Positions 10,411-24,191 of a DNA stretch of 52,292 bases are shown here, piece after piece. Within the stretch, counting starts at the first letter, position 1. Every line of letters starts with the position of its first letter. Location: assembly GCA_016201735.1 (NCBI GenBank), contig JACQCH010000046.1, forward strand, positions 1 through 52,292, read 5' to 3'. The stretch comes from Candidatus Omnitrophota bacterium (lineage in GTDB: Bacteria > Omnitrophota > Gorgyraeia > 1-14-0-20-64-10). Under the pieces are notes generated by a model, which saw only the letters and a list, made by a program, of their open reading frames with translations, made no database searches and was not told where the DNA came from. The translations under genes and the position numbers were made by a program.

Positions 10411-10416
10411 TATAAT
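10411..10416 (+). promoter_or_regulatory. Ancestral queA -10 box
   Basis: A consensus TATAAT lies 8 bases before an ATG (10425) that begins a truncated queA copy. No convincing -35 box is visible at 17 bases upstream. This is probably the original queA promoter, now separated from the intact gene by the vapBC insertion. Transcripts from here could still read through vapBC into queA. Confidence 0.65.
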
Positions 10417-10424
10417 GAGGGGAA

Positions 10425-10493
10425 ATGCTGACCTACGAGCTGCCGAGAGAATTGATCGCGCAGAGGCCGTGCGAGCCCCGTAAAATCGGTTGA
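10425..10493 (+). pseudogene. Truncated 5' end of queA (22 codons), left copy flanking vapBC
   Basis: The ATG and next 18 codons (10425-10481) encode MLTYELPRELIAQRPCEPR, closely matching the start of intact queA at 11160 (MLTYDLPKELIAQRPCEPR). After the shared CCCCG the sequence diverges and stops at TGA 10491-10493. The two 56-base copies differ at 7 positions, three of which are synonymous codon changes and two conservative replacements, so both evolved as coding sequence before being placed side by side. The last 28 bases (10453-10480 and 11188-11215) are identical. Confidence 0.88.
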
Positions 10494-10519
10494 ATAGGCA
10501 CATATCAATATGGTAATAT
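10490..10519 (+). promoter_or_regulatory. Probable vapBC promoter/operator
   Basis: TTGAAT (10490-10495), an 18-base spacer and TAATAT (10514-10519). The region is AT-rich compared with its surroundings and contains a short inverted repeat AATATggtAATATT near 10507-10520 that could be an autoregulatory operator, as is usual for VapBC pairs. Its -35 box overlaps the stop codon of the truncated queA copy. Confidence 0.5.
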
Positions 10520-10553
10520 TCACATAGAGGATATGCCCCAGGAGGGAATTTAT

Positions 10554-10745
10554 ATGCGGACAACCATTGAGCTTCCAGACGACCTTGTTGCCGAAGCAAT
10601 GAGGGTTTCGCACGTTAAGACGAAAACGACGGTGATTACCCTCGGGCTTCAAGAGCTGATCAACAAGCATCGCATCGAGGCATTGCGTTCTCTTCGGGGT
10701 AAGATCGATCTGTCCATAGACGTTCGCAAATCCCGAGGTCGCTAA
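10554..10745 (+). CDS. VapB-type antitoxin (DUF2191-like)
   Basis: A 63-residue protein starting MRTTIELPDDLVAEAM. This is the short ribbon-helix-helix N-terminus typical of VapB antitoxins, followed by KTKTTVITLGLQELINKH and a basic C-terminal tail with LRGKIDLSIDV. ATG 10554 is supported by a strong Shine-Dalgarno sequence (AGGAGGG, 10540-10546), in contrast to the leaderless starts elsewhere. It is expected to bind the toxin encoded next and to repress its own operon. It belongs to the inserted segment between the two queA 5' copies. Confidence 0.85.
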   Translation: MRTTIELPDDLVAEAMRVSHVKTKTTVITLGLQELINKHRIEALRSLRGKIDLSIDVRKSRGR

Positions 10746-10748
10746 AGA

Positions 10749-11159
10749 TTGTCCGAATTGGAAGGCATACTTGCCGACACTTCGATCTGGGTCCACTTCT
10801 TCCGATCTGCCGGAAGCCGGGAAGCCGCTCATTTAGACGGCCTGCTTCAGGCCCGGCTGGTGAGGACTTGCCCTCCGATTCGGGTGGAGGTGATATCGGG
10901 TGCGCGGACCGAACGGGAACGAATGCAATTGCGCGAATTGTTTAGTGCCATCCCTTCTCTGGATCTCCCCGACGATTTTTGGGGACGTATCGAAGAAAGC
11001 CGGTTTTCACTTGCCCGCAAGGGGATCCAGGCCAAACTCATTGATTTAATGATCGCCGCCGTTACGCAGCACCATAACGTCCCTCTCTGGACGCTGGATG
11101 ATGATTTCTCTTTGATCCGGAGCATCGTTCCATTCCCCCGATATATTCCTGAAGTTTAA
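10749..11159 (+). CDS. VapC-type PIN-domain toxin ribonuclease
   Basis: A 136-residue PIN-domain protein. The conserved acidic residues are visible: ILADTSIWVHFF (first Asp), RVEVISGAR (Glu), LIDLMIAAVTQHH and WTLDDDFSLI (last Asp). VapC toxins cleave tRNA or rRNA when released from VapB. The start is a TTG at 10749, three bases after the vapB stop; an in-frame TTG at 10758 is an alternative. Its TAA (11157-11159) abuts the GTG of queA with no spacer, so queA is cotranscribed with and probably coupled to this toxin. Confidence 0.88.
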   Translation: MSELEGILADTSIWVHFFRSAGSREAAHLDGLLQARLVRTCPPIRVEVISGARTERERMQLRELFSAIPSLDLPDDFWGRIEESRFSLARKGIQAKLIDLMIAAVTQHHNVPLWTLDDDFSLIRSIVPFPRYIPEV

Positions 11160-11215
11160 GTGCTGACCTACGACCTTCCGAAGGAGCTGATCGCGCAGAG
11201 GCCGTGCGAGCCCCG
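11160..11215 (+). repeat. Right copy of the duplicated queA 5' end
   Basis: The first 56 bases of intact queA repeat the segment at 10425-10480 with 7 differences; the last 28 bases are identical. The two copies bracket the vapBC module as direct repeats 735 bp apart. The left copy keeps the old promoter and the right copy keeps the gene. Confidence 0.9.
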
Positions 11216-12206
11216 GGATTCCGCCCGCCTGCTGGTGCTGGATCGATCAACCGGTCGGATGGACCATCGCCTCTTTCAGGATCTACCTGCCTTCCTTCAT
11301 CCTGGAGACTGCCTGATTTTAAATGACACGAAGGTCCTGCTGGCTCGGCTTTATGGAAAGAGGGCCGATACCGGCGGAAAGGTGGAACTGCTCATCCTTC
11401 GACAAAGCCTGCCCCCGACTCGATCGGGGGCTCAGGATGAGCGGGGTTGCGTTTACCGGTGCTTGGGACAGCCGGGGAAGCGGTTGAGGCCGGGCACGAA
11501 ACTTCTGTTTGACCACGGATCGATCCGGGGGGAGGTGGTTGCCTCGGAAGCGGGAGAGAAACAGGTGAGATTCGAGGGAAAAACAGACCAGATCTTCTCT
11601 CAGTTAGGTGAAATTCCACTGCCCCCCTACATCCGGCGGCCGGTGGAACCGCGGGATGCGGAATGGTATCAGACGGTTTTCGCCCGGGAGCCGGGGGCGG
11701 TGGCGGCGCCGACGGCGGGGCTTCATTTCACCGAGGAGCTGCTGGACAGGATACGGGCGGCGGGGGTCCGGGTCGCTTTTGTGACGCTCCACGTCGGGTG
11801 GGGGACGTTCAAACCGGTCGGAGAAAAAGAGATTCAGGATGGGCGGCTGCACGAAGAATGGTTCCGGGTCCCGCCGGAGACGATCGAGGCGATCGAAGAG
11901 ACCAAGAAGAAAGGCGGGCGCGTCATCGCTGTCGGGACGACGGTGGTGAGGACATTGGAGACGTTCGCCCTTCGACAAGCTCAGGGCGAACGAACAATCG
12001 AGGGAACGACCGATCTATTCATCCGGCCGGGGTTCGAGTTCCGTGTCGTGGATGCGATGGTAACGAACTTTCATCTGCCGGGCACCAGCCTGCTCCTGCT
12101 GGTGGCGGCGTTCGCGGGGGAGGAAAAAATCTTGAGTGCTTATCAGGAAGCGGTCCGCCAGAAATATCGCTTTTACTCGTACGGCGACGCGATGTTCATT
12201 CAATGA
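11160..12206 (+). CDS. queA: S-adenosylmethionine:tRNA ribosyltransferase-isomerase QueA
   Basis: QueA, 348 residues. It transfers ribose from SAM to preQ1 in tRNA to form epoxyqueuosine. Family blocks are clear: the N-terminal YDLPKELIAQRP, then LILNDTKVLLARL, PLPPYIRR, the AVAAPTAGLHFTEELL block, VGWGTFKPV and FHLPGTSLLLLVAAFAG. The start is GTG, directly after the vapC stop, because the original ATG and promoter lie on the other side of the vapBC insertion. Two palindromic repeats are embedded in frame, giving RQSLPPTRSGAQDE and [12 protein letters not shown]. The end overlaps the next gene by ATGA. Confidence 0.95.
   Translation: MLTYDLPKELIAQRPCEPRDSARLLVLDRSTGRMDHRLFQDLPAFLHPGDCLILNDTKVLLARLYGKRADTGGKVELLILRQSLPPTRSGAQDERGCVYRCLGQPGKRLRPGTKLLFDHGSIRGEVVASEAGEKQVRFEGKTDQIFSQLGEIPLPPYIRRPVEPRDAEWYQTVFAREPGAVAAPTAGLHFTEELLDRIRAAGVRVAFVTLHVGWGTFKPVGEKEIQDGRLHEEWFRVPPETIEAIEETKKKGGRVIAVGTTVVRTLETFALRQAQGERTIEGTTDLFIRPGFEFRVVDAMVTNFHLPGTSLLLLVAAFAGEEKILSAYQEAVRQKYRFYSYGDAMFIQ
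11393..11439. repeat. Palindromic CTTCGACAAGC-type repeat inside queA
   Basis: CATCCTTCGACAAAGC ... GGGGGCTCAGGATG forms a hairpin with an inner CCCCCGACTCGATCGGGGG stem. It is translated in frame within QueA and has no counterpart in typical QueA proteins that I recall. The same complex form occurs inverted at 12735-12787. Confidence 0.75.
11963..11991. repeat. Palindromic CTTCGACAAGC-type repeat inside queA
   Basis: GTTCGCCC, TTCGACAAGCTCA, GGGCGAAC: perfect 8-bp arms around the core. It is read in frame as [11 protein letters not shown] between TTVVRTLETFAL and the final QueA domain. Confidence 0.8.
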
Positions 12207-12734: not shown

Positions 12735-14027
<1,293 letters not shown>

Positions 14028-22416: not shown

Positions 22417-24191
22417 TTCGGGTTTTGCCGGAATTCATTGCCAACAAGATTTCCGCCGGGGAAGTAGTGGAGCGCCCCGCCTCGATCGTCAAGGAGCTCA
22501 TCGAGAACGCCTTGGATGCGGGGGCCCGCTCCATCGATATTGTCATTGAGCACGGCGGAAAAAGTTTGATCCGGGTGGCGGACGACGGGTGCGGGATGGA
22601 TCCTCAGGATGCGAAACTGGCCTTCGGCCGTCATGCCACCAGCAAAATTACAGCGGCGGCGGATCTGGACCAGATCCGCTCGTTCGGGTTCCGGGGAGAG
22701 GCCCTGCCGAGCATCGCCGCGGTGTCGAGGACCCGGCTGGTGACCCGTCCGCAGGGGGCCTCCACTGGAGCCGAGGCGGTGGTGGAGGGAGGCAGTCTTC
22801 TGGCCGTTCAGGAGCATCCCTGCCGGGCGGGGACGATCGTGGAGGTGCGGGACCTGTTTTTCAATACGCCGGCCCGTCGAAAATTTCTGAAGAACGATTC
22901 GACGGAACTGGGACACATCCAGGATCTGGTCTCTCACCTGGCCCTTTCCTCAGGGCAGGTTCGGTTCACCCTCAAGGCGGACGGGAAAATGATCTTTGAC
23001 CTGCCGCCGGTGGAGAATCTGACCCCCAGGGCCGCGGCGATTCTGGGGGAAGAGACGGCCCAGTGGCTCCTGGAGCTGGAGCAGGAGAAACCGGGAATCA
23101 AGCTTTGGGGATTGATTGGAAAGCCCAGTGTGACCCGGGCGAATCGGGCGGAGATTCGTCTGTTCGTGAATCGCCGGTGGGTCCGGTCTCTGTCCCTTTC
23201 CTACGCCCTTCAGGCCGGTTACCATGGCCTCCTGATGCATGGGCGGTTTCCGGTGGCGGTCCTGTTCCTGGAGCTGGACTTAAAAAGGGTGGACGTCAAT
23301 GTCCACCCGGCGAAACAGGAGGTGCGGATCTCCAACGAGCCGGAGGTGGTTGATCTGGTCAAGAACGCGGTAAAGGAACGCCTCCATCAAGCGGGGGATT
23401 TAGCGCCTCAGTTTAAACTTTCCGGGCCCAAAGCGACTCAGAGCTTACAAGTGGTGCGGCCTCCTCTAGCCGCAGCCACGGCTGCCGTTCCGGAGAAATT
23501 GTACCGGCTCACCCCCGCCGCTCCTCTTTGGGGAGAGGGAACGGGGGAGGGGCCGGCGAAGGTCGGGGCCGCGGTTGCCTTGGACGCGCCGATCGCCCTG
23601 CGGGACACCTTGCGGGTCACCAAGATCCTCGGCCAGATTCACAGCACCTTCATCGTCGCTGAAACGGAAGAGGGGATGCTCCTGGTGGATCAACACGCGG
23701 CCCATGAACGGATCCAGTTTGAGGCCCTCTTGAAGAATTTCTCCTCCGGAGAGGCGGAGCGCCAGACGCTGCTTTTGGAGGAGGCGCTGGAACTCCATCC
23801 CAGACAACTGGAGCTTTTCAAGAAGTCTCTGCCGATGCTGGAGAGGGTGGGTTTTGAGTTGGAGCCGTTTGGGGAGCGCACCTTTCTGATTCGGGCGGTT
23901 CCAGCGGTTTTCGGACCCGTTCATCCAGTCCGGCTGCTGACCACTTTCCTGGAGGAGCTGGAGGAAGGCAAGACCCGCACCGCCCTGGAGGACCATCTCG
24001 AGCTTCTTGCGGCCTTGTGCGCCTGCAAGAAGCAGTCGGTGAAGGCCCGGGATCCGTTGGAGCCGCTGGCGGTCCGGAAACTTCTGGAACGGTTGGGCCG
24101 GTGCGAGAACCCGTTCACCTGTCCGCACGGCCGGCCGGTCTTTTTCACCCAATCCTTCTCCGAGATGGAGAAGCAGTTTAAGAGGAGTTGA
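22407..24191 (+). CDS. mutL: DNA mismatch-repair protein MutL
   Basis: MutL, 594 residues. The GHKL ATPase motifs are KELIENALDAGA, DDGCGMD, HATSKI and GFRGEALPSIAAVS. The transducer domain has VNRRWVRS and DVNVHPAKQEVRI. A variable linker (about 340-400) leads to the C-terminal dimerisation domain (LVDQHAAHERIQFEAL, then CACKKQSVKARDPL and CPHGRPVFF). The CPHGRP box, and no clear DQHAxxExxxE endonuclease motif beyond DQHAAHERI, should be compared with nicking and non-nicking MutL types. It overlaps the end of mutS. Confidence 0.97.
   Translation: MGLIRVLPEFIANKISAGEVVERPASIVKELIENALDAGARSIDIVIEHGGKSLIRVADDGCGMDPQDAKLAFGRHATSKITAAADLDQIRSFGFRGEALPSIAAVSRTRLVTRPQGASTGAEAVVEGGSLLAVQEHPCRAGTIVEVRDLFFNTPARRKFLKNDSTELGHIQDLVSHLALSSGQVRFTLKADGKMIFDLPPVENLTPRAAAILGEETAQWLLELEQEKPGIKLWGLIGKPSVTRANRAEIRLFVNRRWVRSLSLSYALQAGYHGLLMHGRFPVAVLFLELDLKRVDVNVHPAKQEVRISNEPEVVDLVKNAVKERLHQAGDLAPQFKLSGPKATQSLQVVRPPLAAATAAVPEKLYRLTPAAPLWGEGTGEGPAKVGAAVALDAPIALRDTLRVTKILGQIHSTFIVAETEEGMLLVDQHAAHERIQFEALLKNFSSGEAERQTLLLEEALELHPRQLELFKKSLPMLERVGFELEPFGERTFLIRAVPAVFGPVHPVRLLTTFLEELEEGKTRTALEDHLELLAALCACKKQSVKARDPLEPLAVRKLLERLGRCENPFTCPHGRPVFFTQSFSEMEKQFKRS

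Follow-up and report, generated by a model that had tools for sequence, protein, structure and literature searches.

A vapBC pair between two diverged copies of the queA start in an Omnitrophota genome: probable import of upstream DNA anchored by recombination in the gene

In the 52,292-nt window that we analysed, one contig from the draft genome (1.81 Mb, 67 contigs) of an uncultured Omnitrophota-type bacterium, an intact VapBC toxin-antitoxin pair sits between two 56-nt copies of the queA start that differ at seven positions (Table 1). A self-search of the window recovered the copies as direct repeats of 58 nt (10423-10480 and 11158-11215; 88% identity, spacing 735, E ~1e-12), in agreement with the first-pass annotation, which had described this layout from the sequence. 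All seven differences fall within the first 31 nt, and the last ~25 nt are identical. The annotation was also right that the left copy keeps the TATAAT box and an ATG and ends after 22 codons (TGA, 10491-10493), and that the right copy, whose GTG directly follows the vapC TAA (11157-11159), heads an intact queA; this gene has 348 codons and is matched by relatives over its full length. Its description of the differences as mostly synonymous or conservative stands apart from the start codon: we counted three synonymous and two conservative codon changes, plus the exchange of ATG for GTG.

Table 1. Features of the queA locus (positions in the window)
Feature	Position	Strand	Basis or remark
TATAAT box, original queA promoter	10411..10416	+	sequence; 8 nt separate it from the left ATG, so that the start is essentially leaderless
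Left, truncated queA 5' end (ATG start)	10425..10480	+	sequence, repeat search
22-codon ORF: truncated copy and first insert codons, TGA stop	10425..10493	+	ORF list
Inserted module: vapBC and its own control region	10481..11159	+	left joint 10480/10481; right edge abuts queA GTG
Candidate vapBC promoter (TTGAAT, 18 nt, TAATAT)	10490..10519	+	sequence; consensus-scan score below threshold
Candidate VapB operator (CATA-N5-TATG)	10523..10535	+	also at the equivalent place in L175, L176/L047, L177 and L178
vapB, antitoxin	10554..10745	+	PF09957, E 1e-15
vapC, toxin, PIN-domain ribonuclease (frame intact, TTG start)	10749..11159	+	PF01850, E 1e-10
Right queA 5' end copy (GTG, abuts vapC TAA)	11160..11215	+	sequence, repeat search
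Intact queA	11160..12206	+	PF02547, E 3e-131; full-length matches in relatives

It is hardly credible that the structure is an assembly error that fused two strains, one with and one without vapBC-queA. The draft state of the genome and the identical shared end of ~28 bp would suit such a fusion, but the left joint, at which queA passes into sequence upstream of vapBC, occurs once in the genome, as judged by its junction 21-mer, and needs a real molecule, and comparable structures are present in an independent genome, G007; we therefore rejected a chimera. A second match to the insert, on contig C13, was discarded as a chance match of 41 nt near an uppS-like gene.

The module has the composition of a VapBC system, with a PF09957 domain directly before a PF01850 domain, both above the curated cut-offs. 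The vapB frame opens at 10533; we chose the ATG at 10554 because AGGAGGG precedes it and homologues agree with it. The vapC product, whose structurally solved relatives by sequence include VapC11 and VapC21, is predicted to be an RNA-cleaving toxin neutralised by VapB. As in other type II VapBC systems, the antitoxin and the PIN toxin form one operon with a candidate CATA-N5-TATG operator; unlike in those, the pair lies inside the 5' end of queA and the toxin stop abuts the queA start. Since the operator motif is common to this locus and the VapBC homologues, the module probably brought its own promoter, and the region of the TAATAT box is similar upstream of the homologues L175, L177 and L178. 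A scan of the stretch from the old promoter to queA found no terminator-like site, and no gap separates queA from vapC; queA therefore probably forms the final gene of the vapBC transcription unit, and it is plausible that its expression depends on the vapBC transcript. The only ORFs in the 680-bp insert are vapB and vapC, and it has no room for an integrase, a transposase or arm sites; its ends carry no terminal inverted repeats, so that both hallmarks of transposons and insertion sequences, inverted termini and a transposase, are absent.

Comparison with relatives revealed the empty site that the annotation had led us to look for. Four genomes of the same family but other genera (G007, G001, G002 and G004) have a single queA start and no vapBC. 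A TATAAT box lies ~6 nt before the queA GTG in three of the four (L004, L005 and L006), the fourth having a similar start, and the queA start is essentially leaderless in all four as well as in the present genome. We conclude that the box that accompanies the left copy is the old queA promoter, parted from its gene by vapBC. A QueA search of 384 genomes of the class gave a match in 331, and among the matches listed there was no truncated queA start outside this genome; a search for a donor genome with a vapBC-queA arrangement found none. Sliding identity of queA against the relatives gave no clear switch of ancestry. Either copy differs from three sequenced relatives at 11-16 positions.

We then searched the whole genome against itself for short diverged direct repeats, excluding paralogue pairs, neighbouring tRNAs and repeat proteins. 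Three loci, queA, thrS and tRNA-Pro, consist of a truncated 5' end, a module and the intact gene, and the cargo at each is a toxin-antitoxin or similar system; only 0.56% of the genome is enclosed by low-copy repeat pairs of a comparable kind. The thrS start is duplicated at C53:30446 and C53:30813 (65 bp, 89%). Between the copies stands what is left of a two-gene module, in the form of two small ORFs; the second, which has no Pfam match, reads to us like a short nucleotidyltransferase remnant. The tRNA-Pro(GGG) copies at C14:14583 and C14:16123 agree at 94% over 50 bp, with no difference in the first 40; the break lies at the anticodon loop, and the insert consists of MntA-like, HepT-like and HNH genes. 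With the thrS case of G007 described below, these loci extend the arrangement to other toxin-antitoxin-type modules; the annotation had suggested a search for such 5'-end duplications in related genomes. A GTG-n-AAG motif was noted near break points.

Two further repeat pairs were not counted. On contig C1 (L050, 4371-4442 and 6143-6214, minus strand) an intact acyP-like gene is followed by a dehydrogenase/thioesterase-type insert and then by a truncated acyP start of 22 codons, its TGA overlapping the start codon (ATG) of a gene that resembles metallophosphoesterases; the truncated start thus lies behind the intact gene, not before it, and the insert is metabolic, so that we regard the locus as a related oddity. 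The pair C53:97921/99554 is linked to a nuclease-like gene and to the end of an IS66-like transposase.

Two cases came to light in G007 when ThrS and homoserine dehydrogenase (Hom) served as queries against the relatives. Its thrS (L212, G007:C95, 255-322 and from 698 onward) has a 22-codon copy followed by a DUF433 antitoxin and a toxin remnant; the break follows the codons for ..AQAVKR, as it does in our genome, with unrelated cargo. In most members of the family thrS lies directly after tRNA-Val. At hom (L225, G007:C14, 1852-1917 and 2117) a 22-codon copy of 66 bp shares 77% identity with the intact start, and behind it come the last ~41 codons of an AAA_14/DUF4143 ATPase gene. This left joint, the only one resolved to the base, brings resident hom (..AAGATGCTG) up against the ATPase gene (..GATGCTGGATGT..) with a shared 7-bp GATGCTG. 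The 144 nt past the joint have 90% DNA identity to the ATPase gene that precedes hom in G008 (L227), where hom has no truncated copy; G007's own complete upstream ATPase gene is only 65% identical to that of G008. The joint and the 90% match together indicate that a stretch preceding hom in a relative became attached to the resident hom at a 7-bp microhomology, with a homologous crossover presumably closing the right-hand side. G008 itself was not the donor, given that the intact hom of G007 is only 72% identical to its hom at the DNA level.

A wider survey covered 48 toxin-antitoxin loci, some places being counted twice; long repeats straddled three of them (L037, which is the present locus, L178 and L186) and repeats of 25-28 bp another two, and the comparison with 29 control queA loci, which gave one low-complexity case, is suggestive only. 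The two other long-repeat loci are VapBC pairs from other families: L178 (G140:C55) has 105-bp direct repeats with 89% identity (1099-1203 and 1908-2012) at a gene 3' end, and L186 (G233:C4) has 76-bp direct repeats with 84% identity (1152-1227 and 2005-2080) just after an lgt-like gene.

We next considered how the left and right copies diverged. When the four protein-coding pairs (queA, thrS of both genomes and hom of G007) were pooled, 22 changed codons were synonymous and 8 non-synonymous. Random mutation of one copy gave a mean synonymous share of 0.27, and the observed 0.73 was reached in none of 2000 runs. Most of the signal comes from hom (11 synonymous codons against 1, at 23% divergence), and queA alone is too short to decide. 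The pooled excess shows that the copies diverged while each was a functional gene in a lineage of its own; one of them was hence imported, and the pairs are not decayed target duplications.

This result bears on the reading that vapBC inserted with a 56-bp target duplication whose copies have since drifted apart, which we hold to be quite unlikely. The layout is that of the long-target-duplication insertion of restriction-modification genes, which are also addiction modules (cited in PMC3031569 and PMC3874152); the queA copies are nearer to each other than to the three relatives, VapC loci of the class (L178 and L186) have imperfect flanking repeats of 76-105 bp, and the queA substitutions taken alone are compatible with the drift of a plain duplication. 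The pooled synonymous bias speaks against it, above all at hom, where 11 of the 12 changed codons are synonymous, since a dead fragment would not change mainly at synonymous sites.

We therefore favour, as the probable explanation, that DNA from upstream of queA in a relative was imported, anchored by recombination within the gene and completed by an illegitimate second joint. An ancestor would have had queA directly behind the TATAAT box, and DNA would have been taken up from a relative whose vapBC was already placed directly before queA. On the right side the incoming DNA would have recombined homologously with the resident queA; on the left it would have been joined illegitimately to codon 19, either by homology-facilitated illegitimate recombination (HFIR) or by circularisation of the fragment and a single crossover in a short shared stretch. 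The left side would thus retain the recipient's own promoter and 56 bp of its queA, which now form a leader ORF of 22 codons, and the donor vapBC and queA start on the right would keep queA intact. The gene would then be read solely as the last of leader-vapB-vapC-queA, from the old promoter, the vapBC promoter or both, and loss of the module other than by exact reversal would silence it. That a module enters the 5' end of a gene and carries a variant of this end with it, as the annotation proposed, fits the empty site, the pooled divergence and the recurrence in both genomes.

The right sides of the inserts run seamlessly into queA, thrS and hom. Of the genes for DNA uptake, the genome has dprA and a comEC-like gene, the frame of the latter interrupted by one TGA and one TAA (G000:C54:20285-21085). 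HFIR joints mostly carry 3-10 bp of microhomology, and partial duplications of the target gene arise when linear DNA forms a circle and enters by a single crossover (PMC3240628). In laboratory experiments, resident DNA is usually lost in HFIR, and duplications of 109-950 bp were seen in the products of circularisation (PMC3240628). At queA 56 bp are duplicated and no resident DNA is deleted; the product is thus HFIR-like or a single-crossover product, not textbook HFIR, and either route fits.

The lengths of the duplications are harder to reconcile with import. They are tight (56 bp at queA, 65-66 at thrS and hom, 50 at the tRNA gene; 50-72 with all cases) and fall short of the 109-950 bp of the circularisation products; together with the break of thrS at the same codon in two genera they fit import poorly, as random joints should scatter. 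Both features could stem from a recombinase that acts in trans, or from selection favouring a short translated leader. The failure of the donor search and the stops in the comEC-like frame also count against import.

The first of these leads to site-specific integration, in which cassettes without an integrase would be moved by a recombinase in trans into fixed sites ~20 codons into conserved genes, the replacement start being the attP; we regard it as possible, if unlikely. Some integrating elements are known to supply a new end for the gene they enter, such as prophage e14 in icd and SXT-type elements in prfC; they are large and have an integrase gene. The present locus resembles them in that a variant gene end with mostly synonymous differences restores the interrupted gene, and departs from them in that the vapBC insert is 0.7 kb and encodes no integrase. 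The clustering of lengths at 50-72 bp, the break of tRNA-Pro at the anticodon loop and the same broken thrS codon with unrelated cargo all accord with fixed sites; at thrS, moreover, the copies are closest within each genome (8 and 10 differences, as against 12-15 between the genomes). Against this, the inserts contain no recombinase and no shared att site, nor was a common core established. PF00589 matches occur on contigs C1, C15, C23 and C59 and none at the queA locus, and the three good tyrosine-recombinase matches of the genome do not adjoin the queA, thrS or tRNA-Pro inserts. Finally, the joint at hom falls within another gene, at a microhomology of 7 bp, and only the last ~41 codons of that gene were taken, which is not to be expected of a defined cassette. 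The analogy with site-specific integrating elements that the annotation had drawn is thus not supported, though the independent break of thrS at one codon in two genera still speaks for a site-specific reading. We also think it unlikely that an undescribed recombination system of this Omnitrophota family targets addiction cassettes 19-22 codons into conserved genes and to the tRNA-Pro anticodon loop, the cassettes being integrase-less and each carrying a working replacement gene start.

Selection offers another account, very unlikely as a full explanation, by which the left copy was retained as a useful translated leader of ~20 codons to drive the module, with selection favouring joints at which stop and start overlap. 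Such overlaps exist: the stop of truncated thrS overlaps the next start (ATGA) in both genomes, and truncated acyP ends in TGATG at the phosphoesterase start. At queA, on the other hand, 60 nt separate the end of the leader from vapB, and vapB is preceded by a Shine-Dalgarno sequence of its own; the right copy, moreover, is left unexplained. A leader role is compatible with import, and the two can act together.

Homology-anchored import and the long-duplication insertion of addiction modules are both already known, and the queA locus is a new variant within them. HFIR is known in Streptococcus, Acinetobacter and Pseudomonas stutzeri (PMC3240628) and has been proposed to have built the immunity-gene arrays at Vibrio T6SS loci (PMC5361080). 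On the import reading, our loci share with these a homologous anchor, an illegitimate far joint with short microhomology and toxin or immunity modules placed beside a conserved gene; they differ in that resident DNA is partly duplicated and not deleted, that the anchors are the starts of unrelated housekeeping genes and that the cargo is type II toxin-antitoxin and similar systems. With the insertion of restriction-modification genes with long target duplication (Nobusato et al. 2000, as cited in PMC3031569 and PMC3874152) they share an addiction module flanked, with no transposase, by long direct repeats of the target, here within the same range of tens to hundreds of bp; unlike the copies expected from a single origin, those at our loci look separately evolved, with at least one imported. 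A literature search for toxin-antitoxin systems together with homology-facilitated illegitimate recombination found no paper in the collection covered.

How toxin-antitoxin modules spread between chromosomes without a transposase or integrase is an open question, and the queA locus suggests a readable route. A module would travel with the start of the gene behind it; homology to that gene would target the import and the imported start would keep the gene alive, so that a housekeeping or essential gene such as queA or thrS ends up hooked onto the module transcript. Such an event leaves a recognisable trace, in which a shortened resident copy stands next to a diverged copy from outside, and any genome can be screened for it.

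Some minor observations concern other repeats in the present genome. A 46-bp interspersed repeat (GTGGCTGCGGCTAG..CACTTGTAATCTCTGAGTCG) lies at 23434-23479 of the window and at about 38 places in the genome, one copy being inside a tRNA-Pro fragment on contig C39. On that contig, which has no intact tRNA-Pro, a second MntA-HepT-like module (L088) stands behind a nuoD-like gene and is edged by tRNA-Pro fragments with the 46-bp repeat (11509-11573 and 13176-13241). On contig C53 a Phd/PIN pair directly after tRNA-Val (L038) is flanked by an imperfect 25-bp repeat (1197-1221 and 1945-1969) of the tRNA-Val/thrS spacer.
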